A stretch of 64,000 nt of DNA, from NCBI RefSeq assembly GCF_001270745.1, contig NZ_LFXL01000031.1:62001-126000 (forward strand), in the 5' to 3' direction. A program made the translations under genes and the position numbers. This DNA is from Jiangella muralis (GTDB lineage Bacteria > Actinomycetota > Actinomycetes > Jiangellales > Jiangellaceae). Below, in pieces: positions 3,186 through 43,554 of this stretch (positions are counted from its first letter, which is position 1; every line of letters starts with the position of its first letter). The notes under the pieces are model-generated. The model worked only from the letters and a program-made list of their open reading frames with translations, was not told where the DNA came from and did not search any database.

Positions 3186-3847
3186 CCCCCGTCCGCGTGC
3201 TGATCGCCGACGACCAGCCGCTGCTGCGGCACAGCCTGGCGCTGCTGCTCGACGCCACGCCGGACCTCGCCGTCGCCGGGACGGCCGCGACCGGCGCCGA
3301 GGCGGCCGCCCTCGCCGCGGACCTGCGCCCTGACGTCGTCCTGATGGACATCCGGATGCCCGGCGGCGACGGCATCGAGGCGACCCGCCGCATCACCGCC
3401 GACCCCGAGCTGGCCGCCGTCCGCGTCCTCGTGCTGAGCATGTTCGAGCTGGACGAGTACGTGTACGCCGCGTTGCGGGCCGGGGCCAGCGGCTTCCTGC
3501 TCAAGGACGCCCGGCCGGAGCAGCTGCTGGACGCGGTCCGGCGCACGCACGCCGGCGAGTCGCTGTTCGCGCCGAGCATCCTGACCCGGCTGGTCGAGCA
3601 CTACCTCGGCCGGCCCGCCGCGGGCCCGGCCGGCGCCCGGCTGGACGTGCTGACCGAGCGCGAGACCGAGGTGCTGGCGCTGGTGGCGGCCGGGCTGTCC
3701 AACGACGAGATCGCGGCGGCGCTGACCATCTCGATCAAGACGGTGAAGACGCACATCGGTCACCTGCTGGCCAAGCTGGCCGCCCGCGACCGCGCGCAGC
3801 TGGTCATCGCCGCGTACGAGAACGGGTTGGTGGGTCAGGCGTCGTAG
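3182..3847 (+). CDS. LuxR/NarL-family response regulator
   Basis: A 221-residue two-domain regulator starting at GTG 3182. The receiver domain has the acidic pair in IADDQ, phosphoacceptor Asp56 in VVLMDIRMPGG, and the switch Lys in GFLLKDA. The C-terminal LuxR helix-turn-helix reads LTERETEVLALVAAGLSNDE followed by the recognition helix region SIKTVKTHI. It is the partner of the kinase just upstream, with which it overlaps by four bases. Its 3' end overlaps the end of paaE, on the opposite strand, by 13 bases. It probably acts on the divergent ABC exporter and on its own promoter through the palindrome at 2270-2304. Confidence 0.92.
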   Translation: MTPVRVLIADDQPLLRHSLALLLDATPDLAVAGTAATGAEAAALAADLRPDVVLMDIRMPGGDGIEATRRITADPELAAVRVLVLSMFELDEYVYAALRAGASGFLLKDARPEQLLDAVRRTHAGESLFAPSILTRLVEHYLGRPAAGPAGARLDVLTERETEVLALVAAGLSNDEIAAALTISIKTVKTHIGHLLAKLAARDRAQLVIAAYENGLVGQAS

Positions 3848-4935
3848 TCGACCTCGAGCGTCGGCGTCGTCGGGTGCGACTGGCAGGTGAGGACGTAGCC
3901 GGCCGCGATCTCGTCGTCCTCCAGCGCGTAGCGGCGCTCCATCGTGACGGCGCCGTCGAGGACCTTCGCCCGGCACGTGCCGCAGACGCCGCCCTTGCAG
4001 GCGAACGGCGCGTCGTTGCGGACCCGGAGCACGGCCTCGAGCACGGTCTCGTCCGGGTCGTCGACGGTGACCTCGGTGCGGCGGCCGTCCAGCGACGCGG
4101 TGACGGCGCAGGTGACGGCCTGCTGCCGGGCCTCCTCGCGGATCGCCGGCGGCGGGTCGCCGACGTGGTACAGCTCGGCGTGGACGTGCGCGCGGTCGAC
4201 GCCGCGGGCGGCCAGCACCCCGCGGGCGGTGGTGATCAGGTCGTACGGGCCGCACAGGTACCAGTCGTCGACGGTGTCCGGCGGCAGCAGGGTGTCGAGC
4301 ACCCGGCCGAGGCGGTCGCCGTCGAGCCGGCCGGACAGTAGCTGCGTCGACCCGGGCTCGCGGGACAGGACGTGCACCAGCTGCAGGCGGCCCGGGTGGC
4401 GGTCCTTGAGGTCGGCCAGCTCGTCCAGGAACATCACCGACGACGACGTCCGGTTGCCGTAGAGCAGCGTGACCCGGCTGCCCGGTTCGGTGTCCAGCGC
4501 CGTCGCGACGATCGACAGCACCGGCGTGATGCCGCTGCCGGCCGCGACCAGCGCGTAGTGCTTGGCCTGCCCCGGCTCGAACGGCGGCGTGAACCGCCCG
4601 GCCGGCGTCATGACGTCGACCTCGTCGCCGGCCGCCAGCGTCTCCAGGGCGTGCGACGAGAACGCGCCGCCGGGGATGCGCTTCACCGCGATGCGCAGCA
4701 CGCCGGACCCGGCCGGCGAGCAGATCGAGTAGCTGCGCCGCACGCCGTCGCCGCCGGGCAGGGCGACGTTGACGTGCTGGCCGGCGGCGAACTCGTAGTC
4801 GGCGGCCAGCTCGGCCGGCACGGCGAACGTGACCGCGACGGCGTCGTCGGTCAGCCGGTCGACGGCGGCGACGCGCAGCCGGTGGGTGACGGAGTGCCGT
4901 CGCCGTTCGCGCGGCGCCTCGGTGGTCGTCGTCAT
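3835..4935 (-). CDS. paaE: Phenylacetyl-CoA epoxidase reductase subunit PaaE
   Basis: A 366-residue oxidoreductase that passes electrons from NADPH through FAD and a [2Fe-2S] centre to the PaaA di-iron oxygenase. Domains in order: an FAD-binding barrel with RRSYS (residues 66-70), a NAD-binding domain with AAGSGITP and LCGP, and a C-terminal plant-type ferredoxin domain with CKGGVCGTCRAK and a final Cys in VLTCQSH. The start at ATG 4935 overlaps the paaD stop by four bases; a longer in-frame extension to 5043 lies inside paaD and is rejected. It is the last gene of the paaABCDE operon, and its stop overlaps the convergent response regulator. Confidence 0.93.
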   Translation of the reverse strand: MTTTTEAPRERRRHSVTHRLRVAAVDRLTDDAVAVTFAVPAELAADYEFAAGQHVNVALPGGDGVRRSYSICSPAGSGVLRIAVKRIPGGAFSSHALETLAAGDEVDVMTPAGRFTPPFEPGQAKHYALVAAGSGITPVLSIVATALDTEPGSRVTLLYGNRTSSSVMFLDELADLKDRHPGRLQLVHVLSREPGSTQLLSGRLDGDRLGRVLDTLLPPDTVDDWYLCGPYDLITTARGVLAARGVDRAHVHAELYHVGDPPPAIREEARQQAVTCAVTASLDGRRTEVTVDDPDETVLEAVLRVRNDAPFACKGGVCGTCRAKVLDGAVTMERRYALEDDEIAAGYVLTCQSHPTTPTLEVDYDA

Positions 4936-16681: not shown

Positions 16682-17860
16682 TCATCGCACCGGCTGCGCA
16701 CTCGACCGCTCCACGCTCGCCGGTTCCGCGGCGGCGAGGGAGAGGAAGCGCTCCCGGTCGAGCCCGTTGCTCGCGTGGGCCAGCGCCCGCCACATCACCG
16801 CGTAGGTCGGGCCGACCAGCCGTCGCCGTACCTCGGCCTCGACCCCTGGGTGAGCGAGCGCGTCGGCCGCGCGGAAGGCATAGGCCGGAGTGGAGCCCTC
16901 GTCGACCGCGTACATCGCCACGAGCGACTGCACCTCCGCGAACTGCTCGGCCGCCAGCCGATCGAGCCCCTGCTCCATCAGCATCAGCACCCCGGCAGCC
17001 GGCTCACCGTCGTACTCCTGCGGCGTCTGCAGATACCTGAAGCCGGACCGGACCGCCGCGCCGAGCGCGATGCAACGATCGGAGAGGTGCAGCTCGGCCG
17101 CGGGCAGCTGTGCCAGTTGGTCGGCCGCGGCCGCGTCGATCACGACGGGTGGATCGGCGAAGACCGCCTCGGGCACGCCGGGAACCCGGAGGATGCGCCC
17201 GTAGAGGAGCGCATCGGACGGCAGGCCCACAGACTCGCCCAGATGCCGCACGACCTGCCACTCCCCCGTCTCGCGATCGCGGACACGTAGCTCGACCCCG
17301 GTGACGCTGCCCAGCTCGTACGCCCGCGCGGAGGTGCTGGCCCAATCCTGGCCGCCACCGCCGCGGCGATCGAGACCGGGCGCGACCCGGACCAGGAACA
17401 GCTCGAGCAAGAGTTCGTCGAACAGCAGCACGTTCGCGGCGGTGCGAGCGACGGCGCCGTGCTCAGCCACCGCCTGCCAGGAATGTTCGGCGGCGTCGGG
17501 CACGAGTGCGATCTGCGCGCCGGCGCAGACGTCGCGTTCGACCTTGGCGGCGACCGGGCTCGGGATGACGCCGGCCCACCGCTGCGCCGCGGCCACGGCG
17601 AACCTGGCCCACTGCCAGACCTCGACCCGGTCGCCCAGCGTCACCATTTCGGCGAGCTGATTCGTCCACGAACTGCCGAGCCGATGAGGTGTTCGCACCA
17701 GGCAGCCAAGGGCGTGGTCGATGTCGCCGTCCTGTTCGGCAAGCATGGCCTCCACGACCAGTTCGCGGTCGCGTGGCTTGAATCGGATCTCGCCGCCGGC
17801 TTCGGGCCGGCGGGTGGTTCGCCGCTTGTTGCGGCGCTTGTGTGCGCGTGTCTTCGTCAT
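16682..17860 (-). CDS. Conserved-looking hypothetical protein with very basic N-terminus
   Basis: A 392-residue protein of no family I recognise. It begins MTKTRAHKRRNKRRTTRRP, a strongly basic stretch that could bind nucleic acid, followed by an acidic, Ala/Leu-rich helical body with no membrane segment. Conserved-looking pieces are HRLGSSWTNQLAEMVTLGD, WQWARFAVAAAQRWAG and VLMLMEQGLDRLAAEQFAEV. ATG 17860 is chosen over an in-frame extension to 17974 because the extension runs into the divergent promoter region. It diverges from the sigma-like gene. Confidence 0.65.
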   Translation of the reverse strand: MTKTRAHKRRNKRRTTRRPEAGGEIRFKPRDRELVVEAMLAEQDGDIDHALGCLVRTPHRLGSSWTNQLAEMVTLGDRVEVWQWARFAVAAAQRWAGVIPSPVAAKVERDVCAGAQIALVPDAAEHSWQAVAEHGAVARTAANVLLFDELLLELFLVRVAPGLDRRGGGGQDWASTSARAYELGSVTGVELRVRDRETGEWQVVRHLGESVGLPSDALLYGRILRVPGVPEAVFADPPVVIDAAAADQLAQLPAAELHLSDRCIALGAAVRSGFRYLQTPQEYDGEPAAGVLMLMEQGLDRLAAEQFAEVQSLVAMYAVDEGSTPAYAFRAADALAHPGVEAEVRRRLVGPTYAVMWRALAHASNGLDRERFLSLAAAEPASVERSSAQPVR

Positions 17861-28759: not shown

Positions 28760-29143
28760 GTGACCCCGCGACCGTTCTCGGGTACGGCACCCAGCTGCCG
28801 CAGAGCATCGAGACGCGGACGGCGGGGTACGAGGCGCAGGCGCGCGACGGCGGAGTTCGTGATGCTGCTGGCGCCGGAGGCGCGTGGGCAGGGGTACACC
28901 GCCGACGCCGCCATGCTGACGCTGGACTGGGGCTTCCACCTGGCGGCGGTGCGGATGGTGTGGCTCAAGGTGCTGGAGCCGAACGCCCACGCGATCCGCG
29001 CCTACGAGCGGGCCGGGTTCCGGCCGGCCGGACGGCTGCGGCAGGCCGGCTGGTGGTACGGCGAATCCTGCGACGAGCTGCTGATGGACGCGGTGCGGGC
29101 GGACTTCCCCGGCCCGAGCCGAGTCCCGGGCCGGGACGCCTAG
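28760..29143 (+). pseudogene. Remnant of a GNAT acetyltransferase (frameshifted and shortened)
   Basis: The C-terminal part is a clear GNAT domain ([20 protein letters not shown], then [20 protein letters not shown] and the [16 protein letters not shown] end) in the frame closing at 29143. The N-terminal part ([20 protein letters not shown], then [10 protein letters not shown]) reads only in another frame from 28762. About 50 residues normally present between the two parts are missing. Both a frameshift and an internal deletion are therefore needed to explain it. A short product from an internal ATG near 28861 is possible but would lack half the fold. Element A begins nine bases after the stop. 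Confidence 0.65.
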
Positions 29144-29151
29144 CCTTCGCT

Positions 29152-29897
29152 TGGCCTCCGAAACTCCGACTCGAACCGAGTTTGAGTGGGCGTCGGGTGG
29201 CTGGTCCCGCTGCGCAGGTGTAGACGCAGCATCTGACCAGCCACGTTCGGTCGCCGGGCCGGCGCAGCGGTGTGGGACTACTACTGCGTGATCGATGTGG
29301 GAACACTGTCGTGTCCGCGACAGTGATGCCGCGTCGCTTCCGCAGCGATCTCACATCGATCTCGGCCGCGACCACTTGTGCGCCCCCGGCACGTCACTGG
29401 GTGGGATCACTGTGCGTGTTGGGTGGCATTGCTGTTGCCAGGGGAACAGTGATCTACCCCACCCGACGCAGCGGATCCACACAGTGGCGTTGGGGATCGT
29501 GTAACGGTTCGCCGTTGTCCCGCAGTTCGCCGCTTTGCGGCTCGTGGGCCGTCCCCGTTCGCCTGGCTGGCTGCCGTTCGTCGTTCGTGCCGGTGCGCCG
29601 TTGGGTCGTCCTCGACTCCCGGAGCCGTCTTCGATGGCGGGAGTCGTGTTCGAGGCGCGTTTCGGACGTTTCTCGCCATCGAAGACGACTCCGGGCATCG
29701 AGGTGTGCCCAGACTGCCCCCGTCCCCCTGATAGCTGCCCGTTCTTGGCCGCGGGACCGCGGGTCAAGCGGACACCCAACGCGCGAAGCGCCGATCGGGT
29801 CCGCTTGAGGCGCGGTCACGCGGCTAAGAAAATGGGCAGCAGGGGGACGGCCAACGCGGCAGACCCGGGCGCACGGTCGGCCACCCAGGCCGCGTAG
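29152..29897. mobile_element. Element A: 0.75-kb hairpin-rich repeat, truncated copy
   Basis: This fills the gap between the GNAT remnant and the convergent ribF and contains no credible gene. Its left end (29152-29200) matches the ends of element B at 41.3-42.1 kb. From about 29391 to 29882 it matches the reverse complement of element B in blocks: the CACTGGGTGGGATC block, GTAACGGTTCGCCGTTGTCC, a central palindrome around TCTTCGATGGCGGGAGT, the long-hairpin module, and GACCCGGGCGCACGGTCGGC. The right terminal repeat is missing and one hairpin module is absent compared with B. A private 29265-29385 section has its own nested palindromes (GATCGATGTG/CACATCGATC and CACTGTCG/CGACAGTG). Confidence 0.75.
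29722..29848. repeat. Long-hairpin module, copy 1 (in element A)
   Basis: A 127-base module that begins GTCCCCCTGATAGCTGCCC and ends GGGCAGCAGGGGGAC. The two halves pair almost throughout: GTCCCCCT/AGGGGGAC, GCTGCCC/GGGCAGC, CTTGGCCGCG/CGCGGCTAAG and TCAAGCGGAC/GTCCGCTTGA, with an apical loop of about 25 bases. By eye about 94% identical to the copy at 41437-41562 in reverse orientation. Confidence 0.75.
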
Positions 29898-29917
29898 CCA
29901 AGATCAAGAGGACTCGC

Positions 29918-30859
29918 CTAGGCGCCAAGCACGACGCGAGCTTTGGCGGCGTCGTCGTGCATGGTGGCGACGAGGTCGTCGACCGAGTCGAACTTGAGCG
30001 TGGGGCGCAGCCGCTCGACGAACTCGAGCAGGATCTCGTCGCCGTAGAGGTCGAGGTCGGTGCGGCCGAGCACGTACGCCTCCACCCGCCGGGACACGCC
30101 GTCGAACGTCGGGTTGGTCCCGATCGAGATCGCCGCGGCGAGCCGCTCCCGGTCCGAGACCCGCGACAACCAGCCCGCGTACACGCCGTCCGCCGGCACC
30201 ATCCCGTCGGCGTCCGCGGCCAGGTTGGCCGTCGGGAAGCCGAGCTCGCGGCCCCGTTTGTCGCCCTCGACGACGAGGCCGCGCAGGCGGTGCGGGCGGC
30301 CGAGGATCTCCCCCGCGCCCGACACGTCCCCGACGGCGAGCAGCTCGCGCACCCACGTCGACGACCACCGGCGCCCGCCGTCGGGGGTGGTGACCTCGGG
30401 GATCACCTCGACGGTGAAGCCGTACCGCGACCCCAGCGCCAGCATCGTCGACAGGTCCCCCGCGTTCTGCCAGCCGAACCGGACGTCGTGGCCGACGACG
30501 ACGGTGACGGCGCGCAGGCCGTCGACCAGGAAGCGGCGGACGAACTCCTCCGGAGACTGGCGGGCGAACTCCCACGTGTACGGCTGGACGAGCACGGCGT
30601 CGAGGCCTGTGGACGCGAGCAGTTCGAGCTTGTCGCGCACGCCGGTGATCAGCGGCGGCGCGTCCTCGGGCCGGTGCAGCTGGCGCGGGTGCGGGTCGAA
30701 GGTGACGGCGACGGACTGCGCGCCGGCGGCCGCGGCGTCGGCGACCATGCGGGTCAGGACCTGCCGGTGGCCGAGGTGGACGCCGTCGAAGTTGCCGATG
30801 GTGACGACCGACGGGCCGAACCCGGGAGGGACCTGGTCGAGATCGGTCCAGCGGTGCAC
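29918..30859 (-). CDS. ribF: Bifunctional riboflavin kinase / FAD synthetase
   Basis: A 313-residue enzyme that makes FMN and then FAD. The N-terminal nucleotidyltransferase domain has VVTIGNFDGVHLGHRQVL and the later VVVGHDVRFGWQNAGD and SSTWVRELLAVGDV. The C-terminal riboflavin kinase domain has RGRELGFPTANLAADAD and the DEILLEFVERLRPTLKFDSV end. Normal family length. It lies between element A (convergent side) and the MFS efflux gene, in the rpsO-ribF-truB neighbourhood conserved in actinobacteria. Confidence 0.95.
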   Translation of the reverse strand: MHRWTDLDQVPPGFGPSVVTIGNFDGVHLGHRQVLTRMVADAAAAGAQSVAVTFDPHPRQLHRPEDAPPLITGVRDKLELLASTGLDAVLVQPYTWEFARQSPEEFVRRFLVDGLRAVTVVVGHDVRFGWQNAGDLSTMLALGSRYGFTVEVIPEVTTPDGGRRWSSTWVRELLAVGDVSGAGEILGRPHRLRGLVVEGDKRGRELGFPTANLAADADGMVPADGVYAGWLSRVSDRERLAAAISIGTNPTFDGVSRRVEAYVLGRTDLDLYGDEILLEFVERLRPTLKFDSVDDLVATMHDDAAKARVVLGA

Positions 30860-40290: not shown

Positions 40291-40812
40291 GTGTGCTCCG
40301 TGAAGCAGAGGGTGGACGAGGGCCGGCGGCGGCTGCTCATGCTGGTCGCCGGGGCTCCGGCGCTCGGCGTGGCACTGGCCGCGTGCGGCGCCGAACCGCG
40401 TCCGAAGGCGGCGCCCGGGCCGCGCGCGACCCTCGACGCCGACGTGAAGCTGCGCTGGCGCGCGGTGCACGGCGAGCAGACGTTGCTGGCGCTGCACGCG
40501 GCCACCGTCGCGGCGCATCCGGGCCTCGCCGAGCGGCTGCAGTCCCTGACCGCGCACCACGACGAGCACCTGGCCGCGTTGCGGGCCGACGGGCCGCTGC
40601 CGTACGGCCCCGGCCCCGGCGCCGGCACGCCGGCCGCCGCCCCGTCCGTCGCCGCCGATGCGGATGCCGCACTGGCCGCCGTCGCCGACGCCGAGCGGGC
40701 CGCCGCCGACGCGTGCGTCGTGGCCGCGCTGGGCGCCGCCGGGCCGCGGCTGGCCGCCGTGCTGGCGTCCATCGCCGCGTCCGAGGCCGGTCACGGGGTG
40801 GTGCTGGCGTGA
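40291..40812 (+). CDS. Ferritin-like lipoprotein of the DUF4439 neighbourhood
   Basis: A 173-residue Ala-rich helical protein with a twin-Arg-like N-terminus (RRRLLMLVAGAPALG) and a lipobox LAAC near residue 32, so it is likely lipid-anchored on the outer face of the membrane. The body is predicted to be a helical bundle (WRAVHGEQTLLALHAATVAA, then LTAHHDEHLAALRAD), with several Glu/His that could form a ferritin-like site. GTG 40300 is an equally good start. It overlaps the next gene by four bases; the pair beside rimP is also seen in mycobacteria (Rv2843/Rv2844 position). Confidence 0.75.
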   Translation: MCSVKQRVDEGRRRLLMLVAGAPALGVALAACGAEPRPKAAPGPRATLDADVKLRWRAVHGEQTLLALHAATVAAHPGLAERLQSLTAHHDEHLAALRADGPLPYGPGPGAGTPAAAPSVAADADAALAAVADAERAAADACVVAALGAAGPRLAAVLASIAASEAGHGVVLA

Positions 40813-41273
40813 CGACCACCCCGGCGCCGACGCCGCCGCCGTCCGCCGCCTCCGCCGAGCCCGCGATCGAGGCCGCACAGGCGGCGCTGGCCGGCGAGCA
40901 TGCCTGCGTCTACGGCTACGGCGTGGCCGGCGCGCACCTGCCCGACGACGCCTCGGCCGCGCTGGCGGCGCTGACGTCGCACCGGGCCCGCCGCGACGCA
41001 CTGACCGCGCTGATCGCGGCCGCGGGCGCCGAGCCGGTCGCGGCCGAGCCCGGCTACGCGCTGCCCTCCCCCGTCACCGACGAGGCGTCCGCCCTGGCCC
41101 TCGGGGTGCTGCTGGAGGAGCGGCTCGGCGCGCTGTACGCCGACCTCGTCGGCGCCGCCACCTCGCCCGAGCTGCGCGAGCTCGCCGTCCGCGGCGTCGT
41201 CGCGGCCACCGTCCAGGCCGTGGCCTGGGGTGGCGCGCCGACCGCGTTCCCCGGCCTCGACGGCCGCATCTAA
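40809..41273 (+). CDS. DUF4439 ferritin-like protein
   Basis: A 154-residue four-helix-bundle-type protein. The family features are AAQAALAGEHACVYGYGVAG at the first helix and ALALGVLLEERLGALYADLV at the third. No signal peptide is present, so it is probably cytosolic, unlike its lipoprotein partner. The start GTG 40809 overlaps the upstream stop (GTGA). The stop at 41273 is eight bases from the left end of element B. Function unknown. Confidence 0.8.
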   Translation: MTTTPAPTPPPSAASAEPAIEAAQAALAGEHACVYGYGVAGAHLPDDASAALAALTSHRARRDALTALIAAAGAEPVAAEPGYALPSPVTDEASALALGVLLEERLGALYADLVGAATSPELRELAVRGVVAATVQAVAWGGAPTAFPGLDGRI

Positions 41274-41436
41274 CGTCGCTGGGTCTCCGAAGCTCCGACA
41301 CTCGAACCGAGTTTGAACGGGCGTCGCGTGGCGGCGCGCCCCGTGTGGCCGGTCGACTCGGTCGGGCCGGGCTTCTCGTTGGCTGGCCGACCGTGCGCCC
41401 GGGTCTACCACGTTCGCCGCTTTGCGGCAGTTGGCC

Positions 41437-41562
41437 GTCCCCTGCTGCCCATTCTCTCAGCCGCGTGACCGCGCCTCAAGCGGACCCGGATGGCGCTTCG
41501 CGCGCTGGGTGTCCGCTTGACCCGCGGTCCCGCGGCCAAGAACGGGCACCTATCAGGGGGAC
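41437..41562. repeat. Long-hairpin module, copy 2 (in element B, reversed)
   Basis: Reverse-complement orientation relative to copy 1 (29722-29848) and nearly identical to it by eye. It begins GTCCCCTGCTGCCCATTCTC and ends CCTATCAGGGGGAC. The two halves pair along almost the whole length. Confidence 0.75.
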
Positions 41563-41762
41563 GGGGAAAGACTGGGCACACCTCGATGCCGGCCGACGTC
41601 TTCGATGGTGAGAACCGTCCGAACGACGCCTCGAACACCACTCCCGCCATCGAAGACGACTCCGGGAGTCGAGGACACCAAACCATGCACCGGCACGAAC
41701 GACGAACGCCAGCCAGCCAGGCGAACGGTGCATCCGGGCGGGCCTGTGCCTGCACTTCCCCC

Positions 41763-41890
41763 GTCCCCCTGATAGCTGCCCGTACTTGGCCGCGCGCGTG
41801 CGGGTCAAGCGGACCTTCGCCGGCGCGAAGCGCCCCACAAGTCCGCTTGAGGCGCACGTGCGCGGCTAAGAAAATGGGCAGCAGGGGGAC
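41763..41890. repeat. Long-hairpin module, copy 3 (in element B, forward)
   Basis: Same orientation as copy 1. The outer parts (GTCCCCCTGATAGCTGCCC and GGGCAGCAGGGGGAC) are identical to copy 1. The middle differs, but in a compensatory way: GGCCGCGCGCGTGCGGG on one side faces GCGCACGTGCGCGGCT on the other, so the stem is kept. That pattern argues for selection on the fold. Confidence 0.75.
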
Positions 41891-42110
41891 GGCCCACTAC
41901 CGCAAGGCGGCGAACTGCGGGACAACGGCGAACCGTTACATGAACCCACCTCACCGTGTGAGATCGCTGCGCCGGCTGGGGTGGATCACTGTTCCTCTGG
42001 CAACAGCAACGCCACCCACCAAACACAGCGATCCCACCCAGTGACGCGCCGCCACCCGACGCCCGTTCAAAACTCGGTTCGAGTGCCGGAGTCTCGGAGA
42101 CCAAACGGAG

Positions 42111-43523
42111 CTAGAGATCGAAGCGGTCCAGCGCGCGCAGCTTGTTGGTGACGTCGAGCGCGGCGACCTTGTACGCCTCGGACAGCGTCGGGTAGTTGAA
42201 CACGGTGTCGACGAGGTAGTCGACGGTGCCGCCGCAGCCCATGACCGCCTGCCCGATGTGCACCAGGTCCGCCGCGCCCGTCCCGAACACGTGGACACCG
42301 AGGATGTGCCGGGTCGCCGGGCTGACCAGCAGTTTCAGCATGCCGTAGGAGTCGCCGACGATCTGCCCGCGGGCCAACTCGCGGTAGCGGGAGATGCCCA
42401 CCTCGTACGGGACGGCGTCCTGCGTCAGCTCGACCTCGGTGCGGCCGCAGTAGGAGATCTCGGGGATGGTGTAGATGCCGATCGGCTGGATCTCGCGCAG
42501 CTCGTTGGCCGGCTCGCCGAACGCGTGCAGCGACGCCAGCCGGCCCTGGTCCATGCTGGTGGCGGCCAGCGCCGGGAAGCCGATGACGTCGCCGACGGCG
42601 AAGATGTGCGGCACCGTCGTCCGGTACTGGCCGTCGACGGTGATGCGGCCGCGGTCGTCCGCGGAGAGGCCGGCGTTCTCGAGCCCCAGTTCGCCGGTGA
42701 CGCCCTGCCGGCCGGCGGAGTACATGACGGTCTCGGCCGGGATGCGCTTGCCGCTGGCCAGCGTCGTGACGGTGCCGTGCGACCCGATCTCGACCTTCTC
42801 GACCTCCTCGCCGAACCGGAACGTCACCGAGAGGTCGCGCAGGTGGAACTTGAGCGACTCGACCACCTCGGGGTCGCAGAACTCCAGCATCTGCGCCCGC
42901 TTCTCGACGACGGTGACGCGGGTGCCGAGCGCGGCGAACATCGACGCGTACTCGATGCCGATGACCCCCGCGCCGACGACGACCATGGAGTCGGGGATGC
43001 GCTCCAGCGTGAGGATGCCGTCGGAGTCGACCACCCGGCCCTCGTCGAACTCGACGTGGGCCGGGCGGGCCGGTGTCGTGCCGGTGGCGACGACGACGTT
43101 CGCGGCGGTGATCTGCCGGTGCTCCCCCGGCCCGTCGACGGCGACGGTGTGCGGGTCGACGAAGCGGGCGGTGCCGACCACGAGATCGACGTGGTTGCGG
43201 AACAGCTGCGCCCGCACCACCTCGATCTCGCGGCCGATGACGTGCTGCGTGCGGGCCAGCAGGTCCTGCACGGTGATCTCGTGCTTCACGCGGTACGACT
43301 GGCCGTACAGCTCACGCATGGACAGGCCGGTGAGGTACAGCACGGCCTCGCGCAGCGTCTTGGACGGGATGGTCCCGGTGTTGACGCACACGCCGCCGAT
43401 CATGTTCCGGCGCTCGACGACGCAGGCTCGTTTGCCGAGCTTGGCGGCGCCGATGGCGGCCTTCTGCCCGCCCGGGCCGGAGCCGATGACGAGGAGGTCG
43501 TAGTCGTACTCGGGTTCGTCCAT
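42111..43523 (-). CDS. sthA: Si-specific NAD(P)+ transhydrogenase (soluble)
   Basis: A 470-residue flavoprotein that transfers hydride between NADPH and NAD+. The FAD loop is [20 protein letters not shown]. The usual redox pair of this superfamily is replaced by [14 protein letters not shown], with a single Cys, the mark of SthA as opposed to lipoamide dehydrogenase. The NAD loop is [15 protein letters not shown] and the C-terminal interface has [19 protein letters not shown] 43523 is preferred over GTG 43529 because GGAG is seven bases from the ATG but too close to the GTG. Confidence 0.93.
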
Positions 43524-43554
43524 GCACACGCTCCAGCTCGCCGGTACCTCAACG

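Follow-up and report, generated by a model that had tools for sequence, protein, structure and literature searches.

A hairpin-rich, gene-less and probably mobile element family of Jiangella associated with CTAG between convergent genes

The convergent gap between a DUF4439 gene and sthA in Jiangella muralis is occupied by an element without genes, designated B, which belongs to a family that is probably one of non-coding, non-autonomous mobile elements aimed at CTAG, or more broadly YTAR, and parting convergent genes without harming them. As far as tested the family is confined to Jiangella. The genome holds many copies, relatives have empty sites, the junctions carry CTAG, TAG stops and convergent gaps are enriched at the elements, and the arms of the constituent hairpin covary.

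Element B and its modules

The window analysed here is a stretch of 64,000 nucleotides, part of the 7.27-Mb genome G000 (76 contigs). B lies inside a convergent gap in which the stop codon of the left gene ends at 41273 and that of the right gene begins at 42111. The original prediction placed the element from eight bases after one stop to nine bases before the other; the gap is wholly filled as claimed, the spacing is eight on both sides, and because the end motif continues through these eight bases per side the extent is set flush with both stops. The E1 ends located by nhmmer at 41274(+) and 42110(-) are each 0 bases from a stop codon. Features of B, its neighbours, and A, the second copy in the window, are as follows.

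41274..42110, no strand: element B, full, bounded by stop codons (TAA of the left gene, TAG of the right gene), with nhmmer E1 ends
41274..41345, + strand: end E1, left copy of B; CTAA precedes (41270-41273)
41346..41410, + strand: module armL, elsewhere mostly on the E2 side, in B joined to E1 (chimera)
41411..41585, + strand: hairpin module H, left copy of B
41586..41721, + strand: module mid of B, with the weak central hairpin 41581-41613/41642-41674
41745..41915, - strand: hairpin module H, right copy of B, inverted, 81% to the left copy
41934..42050, + strand: module armR of B, next inward of E1 in 29/35 E1 ends of this genome
42045..42110, - strand: end E1, right copy of B, then CTAG (42111-42114), holding the stop of the right gene
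40809..41273, + strand: left neighbour of B, DUF4439 protein (PF14530)
42111..43529, - strand: right neighbour of B, Si-specific NAD(P)(+) transhydrogenase, called sthA (NF003585)
29144..29917, no strand: element A, second window copy, E1 left and E2 right, flanked on either side by CTAG (29140-29143, 29918-29921)

The long terminal inverted repeats proposed for the element are present in B as an outer pair of arms (41269-41314/42070-42115, 46 nt, 83%) and an inner pair (41312-41338/42045-42071, 27 nt, 96%), although they are not a property of the family, in which most copies have unlike ends. The two oppositely oriented long-hairpin modules are likewise borne out by the inverted H copies, while the central palindrome is recovered as a weaker hairpin (76%). 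The 821 nt first delimited (41282-42102) fold as one long hairpin of -321.7 kcal/mol against a shuffle mean of -187.1 (20 dinucleotide shuffles, 0 as low), and the observation as a whole, in ends, hairpin modules, gap filling and fold, is confirmed. A coding reading is dropped, in agreement with the earlier judgement that B has no open reading frame with sensible codon usage: neither of two frames inside it (184 and 150 codons) matches a Pfam family, H loop lengths are even modulo 3 (22/20/20 among 62 aligned H copies), and every one of the six H frames is interrupted by stop codons, in 17 to 38 of 42 anchorable copies per frame.

Compared with its own genome B yields at least 183 aligned pieces (40 of 196 first-look candidates scored); it is thus no single-copy oddity, the outcome that would have told against the original prediction. 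Within the fetched loci (L028-L085 minus L065, plus two window stretches) G000 contains 59 module clusters spanning 172 to 1210 nt and totalling 33.5 kb, some of them single modules. The copies are mosaics of the same modules, with two end types: E1, CTTCGCTTGGTCTCCGAAACTCCGACACTCGAACCGAGTTT..., found 35 times in this genome, and E2, ATGAGTGAGTCCGATTGATC..., found 27 times at a lax E-value of 0.5. The first module inward of E1 is armR in 29/35 ends and armL in 3/35, one of the latter being the left end of B; inward of E2, armL or H stands in the same sense in 21/27. These adjacencies give a canonical order of E1-armR-H-mid-H(inverted)-armL-E2, with unlike ends, and canonical copies in this genome measure about 0.4-1.3 kb. 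Inspection by eye shows no clear inverted-repeat relationship between E1 and E2, and E1 was found at both ends only in B, L062 and L059. The H unit is ~150 nt and is paired mainly in inverted fashion, with 98 of 143 neighbouring H pairs being +-, self-overlaps included.

Several other repeats adjoin these elements. Three E1 ends (L060:85-107, L062:1-23 and the end of L075) have a common outer flank, GAAGGACTACCGACCTATATCAG, lying at most about 110 bases from a contig end and probably stemming from a repeat, for instance an IS, that has been collapsed. In some cases E2 abuts a further repeat (AACCTCGCTGG / GGCCTCGGACC), and the junction reads CTGG (L070 30-200, L063 about 3709, L064 about 3237, L054 about 2675). 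A second palindromic repeat family of about 60-80 nt, GTTGATC[T/A]TGGAG...CTCCA[A/T]GATCAAC and variants, also inhabits Jiangella convergent gaps (L196 about 17445-17515, L204 about 3415-3490, L207, L208, L211, L038 2930-2990) and sometimes lies within an H element, as in L026.

H is present in 10 of 12 genus genomes and in 0/10 other genomes of the order. It is not found in G004 and G007, and the whole element has one weak match to G004 (E = 6e-5). Across the class, with two candidates scored per genome, 10 of 393 genomes have H, all in one genus of 137. The H core occurs in at least 99 stretches of named records, the matches listed being all from Jiangella (J. rhizosphaerae, J. anatolica, J. 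ureilytica, J. aurantiaca and J. endophytica), while the E1 pattern returns 0 stretches in a genome contig collection that may omit the window's own genome. Carriage by phages or plasmids is rejected, there being no match to the element in viral contigs (exact pattern) or in plasmids and phages (blastn). The earlier statement that no described actinobacterial element is known to have this architecture is in keeping with open-licence PMC papers, where no title among the matches listed concerns such an element.

The H hairpin as a folded strand

The outer stems of H are nearly invariant, with both-side changes in 2 of 22 predicted pairs (62 aligned copies). The middle stem changes wholesale together with its partner, a feature that the 62-copy alignment does not resolve, and the mismatches stay at fixed places while the middle stem varies. 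Arm pairs were compared after parsing 223 of 295 full-length H hits and dropping 72 (some of them antisense self-hits), leaving 120 distinct pairs. The cognate duplexes average -15.2 kcal/mol and the swapped ones -10.7 kcal/mol, the cognate being better in 98/120 with kinship ignored. Covariance analysis had been suggested with the original prediction; the H stems do covary, and the matched changes in the arms favour constraint on a folded strand, either RNA or single-stranded DNA. Among 1364 predicted-pair cells, 1334 are Watson-Crick, 11 G-U, 5 A-C and 14 others, and the non-Watson-Crick cells are too few to choose between the two.

Covariation of this kind is also what a structured RNA would display, and the element may be a putative RNA of that sort, or a two-way terminator or mRNA 3' end of convergent genes, kept for that role with its spread being secondary. 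We regard this as doubtful. It accounts for the strong convergent bias and the placement directly after stop codons described below, for the better cognate pairing in 98 of the 120 arm pairs, and for the excess of G-U (11) over A-C (5) where bases pair, counts that, next to 14 other mismatches, are too small to decide. An Rfam scan of 40800-42600, however, gives two matches up to E = 1, both far below gathering score; at sites A and B the stops overlap in several relatives, leaving no room for a terminator; H-bearing gaps are also tandem (16/46 in this genome and 36/80 in other Jiangella) and sometimes divergent (3 and 6); and related species differ by gains, rearrangements and losses of copies. 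In favour of the original structured-RNA proposal, H is constrained as a folded strand, but the evidence is the same for RNA and for single-stranded DNA.

CTAG junctions and turnover between species

Comparison of empty and filled sites, as the original prediction had proposed, is informative for A, which is absent in 5 of the 7 relatives fetched at its site. In four of these (G001, G002, G003 and G008) the facing GNAT gene and ribF overlap by CTAG, and in G010 the overlap is CTAA/TTAG. In the window CTAG stands on both sides of A, and the GNAT gene and ribF both keep TAG stops; CTAG twice around A versus a single CTAG in the four empty sites constitutes a target site duplication, at one clean locus only. 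The search of this site in G011 did not recover the GNAT gene, and in G006 (L199) a 281-nt insert, with no H detected and CTAG at its right end, lies between the GNAT gene and ribF.

The same tetranucleotide recurs at the junctions of other copies. Immediately before E1, CTAG is the tetranucleotide at 13/35 ends (19/35 when offsets of one or two bases are tolerated), CTAA at 2 and TTAG at 1; E2 junctions, with E2 taken at the lax E-value of 0.5, have CTAG in 11/27 and CTGG in 9/27. E1 starts no more than one base from a neighbour's stop codon in 18/35 cases (TAG 15, TAA 3, TGA 0), while 10/35 have no called stop close by; E2 starts within one base of a stop in 8/27, TAG being the stop in 7. 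Stops of the 249 other genes of at least 100 codons are TGA in 199, TAG in 45 and TAA in 5, so that TAG is enriched at E1 stops relative to this background of 45/249 (Fisher p = 2e-8). Genes were called with our own simple codon-usage script, by which some short or odd genes are missed.

About 159 CTAG would be expected in the window from its base composition. Outside the elements and their junctions there are 10, with 4 at stops, 5 intergenic and 1 within a gene, 86% of the window being called coding. The 262 kb examined in relatives contain 53 (27 at stops, 22 intergenic, 4 within genes), in which the same orthologous sites are repeated. Because CTAG is rare within genes but present at gene ends and in gaps, a CTAG-seeking inserter would be led there without recognising genes. 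Exact four-base overlaps at CTAG or TTAG are seen in 12/40 convergent pairs, but 10 of these 12 are sites A and B themselves as they occur in the relatives. Gaps bearing H are convergent in 27, tandem in 16 and divergent in 3 cases in this genome (n=46), and in 38, 36 and 6 cases in other Jiangella (n=80); among H-free gaps the convergent ones number 30/273 and 80/775 respectively.

These features suggest a simple model, in which the element would enter a four-base site, mostly CTAG (YTAR type), that then stands at both of its ends. CTAG can be the shared stop of convergent genes with a four-base overlap, and insertion there would push the genes apart and leave each with a TAG stop. A transposase acting in trans would recognise the ends, the folded H pair, or both.

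The CTAG rule applies to the E1/E2 copies of this genome. Many copies in J. rhizosphaerae start near stop codons, mostly TGA, and the rule is not visible; one occupies what is a 3-nt gap between stops in G006, with no evident duplication. Either target choice varies from one species to another, or the pattern owes something to selection against damaged genes.

Some sites are filled in one species and without H in others, and other sites are shared between species with a rearranged interior; given the copies common to several species, not all are recent hops. At one site G000 has two H, G001 has one and G010 only an H scar (by eye), with flanking genes 95-96% alike. Among 11 shared pairs, H is better conserved than the rest by at least 0.04 in 7 and by 0.02 in two, and lower in two. 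No H is present at L028a/L028b in relatives with both flanks found, and since the gap sizes vary greatly there is no clean empty site except in G007 for L028b. The L029 site in G010 is a 2149-nt gap, and gene order led to no counterpart of L073 at the expected places in G010 or G001. A putative chromosome-architecture or protein-binding site, for which the original suggestion has gained no positive evidence, would fit the conservation of the hairpin in 10/12 genus genomes; that H was not found in the other two, and that number and structure at the same orthologous site vary even from one close species to another, makes such a role very improbable. The copy number, the empty sites and the defined ends with their target sequence all support the interpretation as a non-autonomous mobile element, which the original prediction had listed first, and the original interpretation is in this sense partly supported.

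At site B, nine relatives (G001, G002, G003, G005, G006, G008, G009, G010 and G011) carry an additional gene between DUF4439 and sthA. In G009 (taken as J. rhizosphaerae) it encodes an alpha/beta hydrolase (PF00561), and the end of this G009 gene aligns with the other eight at about 91%. The J. rhizosphaerae genome has its own H element in the gap between the DUF4439 and hydrolase genes, with no H counterpart in 8 relatives. The two genus genomes without H, G004 and G007, have no sthA match at E <= 1e-100 either.

The hydrolase gene is missing at site B in G000. A sensitive search with the G001 gene (short words and protein) gave nothing at the protein level in B or the window, and DNA matches of 19-39 nt only, the best in B being 21 nt with E = 6e-4 in a tiny search; these short matches are taken as chance. 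With E1 at either end B has the look of a chimera, and this E1...E1 structure, together with the exact stop-to-stop filling, suggests that two copies flanking the hydrolase gene recombined. Such an event would have deleted the gene and left the E1...E1 chimera now observed.

Candidate movers and related systems

Two classes of mover are rejected, neither profile being found in the 12 genus genomes: Y1_Tnp (PF01797) is present in 0/12, with the positive control found in 5/14, and DDE_5 (PF13546, IS701) in 0/12, with the positive control found in 2/14. DDE_Tnp_1 (PF01609) occurs in 7/12 (6 above cut-off) and is absent in the element-rich G005, G009 and G011. This genome has three DDE_Tnp_1 matches, the longest in L038, where an IS at 3322-4197 (G000:C4 about 310 kb) encodes a split DDE_Tnp_1 transposase and has its own inverted-repeat ends, GTTTCAGAATG/CATTCTGAAAC. 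It sits within the right H hairpin of an element, whose H inner stem is missing; having its own ends and interrupting an H, it is rejected as the autonomous version. No autonomous IS with element ends was found among the fetched loci and 53 E1 candidates (40 scored), and each of the 35 E1 ends is followed by element modules within 400 nt.

One more specific form of the mobile-element reading is a MITE of an IS5-type DDE transposase, with a 4-bp PyTAPu target and a preference for CTAG. The targets listed for IS5 in the relevant passages of PMC5493358 are CTAG in 15/24, CTAA in 3 and TTAG in 3, and a CTGG site is also named. The E1 junctions (CTAG, CTAA, TTAG) and E2 junctions (CTAG, CTGG) resemble these, as far as those passages describe target choice, and this likeness of the junction spectrum makes an IS5-type enzyme the best known candidate, although shared ends or a transposase are not demonstrated for the Jiangella element. 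We consider this form less likely than not: E1 and E2 are not evident mutual inverted repeats by eye, the L038 IS with the longest of the three DDE_Tnp_1 matches has other ends and is itself inserted within an element, and three element-rich genomes do without DDE_Tnp_1.

A second form is REPIN-like, with the inverted hairpin pair copied as folded single-stranded DNA by an HUH or other strand-specific enzyme. REPINs and REPs with RAYT, as characterised in parts of PMC3116915 and PMC3733652, are likewise gene-less, intergenic pairs of inverted imperfect hairpins with complementary stem variation, mostly between convergent or same-direction genes. H too is mainly an inverted pair (98/143 neighbouring pairs +-, self-overlaps included), with mismatches at fixed places and a changing middle stem, and its intergenic location with convergent bias is that given for REPs in sections of PMC3733652. 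In contrast, H is about 150 nt, whereas REPIN hairpin units are 20-40 bp; Y1_Tnp (PF01797) is lacking from 12/12 genus genomes; the Jiangella element has extra modules and, in this genome, CTAG ends; and CTAG at both ends of A better fits a staggered-cut transposase. We judge REPIN-like copying unlikely.

The preferred reading of a non-autonomous mobile family can also be taken further, to a gene-less unit whose paired ~150-nt bulged hairpins would be recognised as a folded strand by a putative host or trans-acting enzyme of neither Y1 nor IS701 type, with the near-absence of coding CTAG acting as a safe harbour, entry at the four bases shared by overlapping convergent stops, and a stop codon handed back to each gene. 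As a complete scheme this is speculative and, in our estimate, rather improbable.

The BOX elements of pneumococcus are modular hairpin-rich intergenic repeats of combinable sub-units and are much smaller. The Jiangella element shares the modular, hairpin-rich and intergenic character, but is larger and resides in an unrelated host. It resembles MITEs (RUP, Correia and ERIC, in the portions of PMC2229807 that treat them) in being non-coding, multi-copy and without a transposase, with a target duplication at one site, but it exceeds the <200 bp given there, most copies are without terminal inverted repeats, and no partner IS with the same ends was found. The element is thus MITE/REPIN-like, with an unusual size, an unusual module set and, in this species, a neat target rule.

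The family represents a hairpin with strong intrastrand covariation and no known mover, and the hydrolase loss at site B would be a gene loss marked by such an element. It offers a concrete and testable answer to how a repeat may multiply in a gene-dense, high-GC genome without gene breakage, namely by aiming at a tetranucleotide that coding sequence avoids and stop codons supply.
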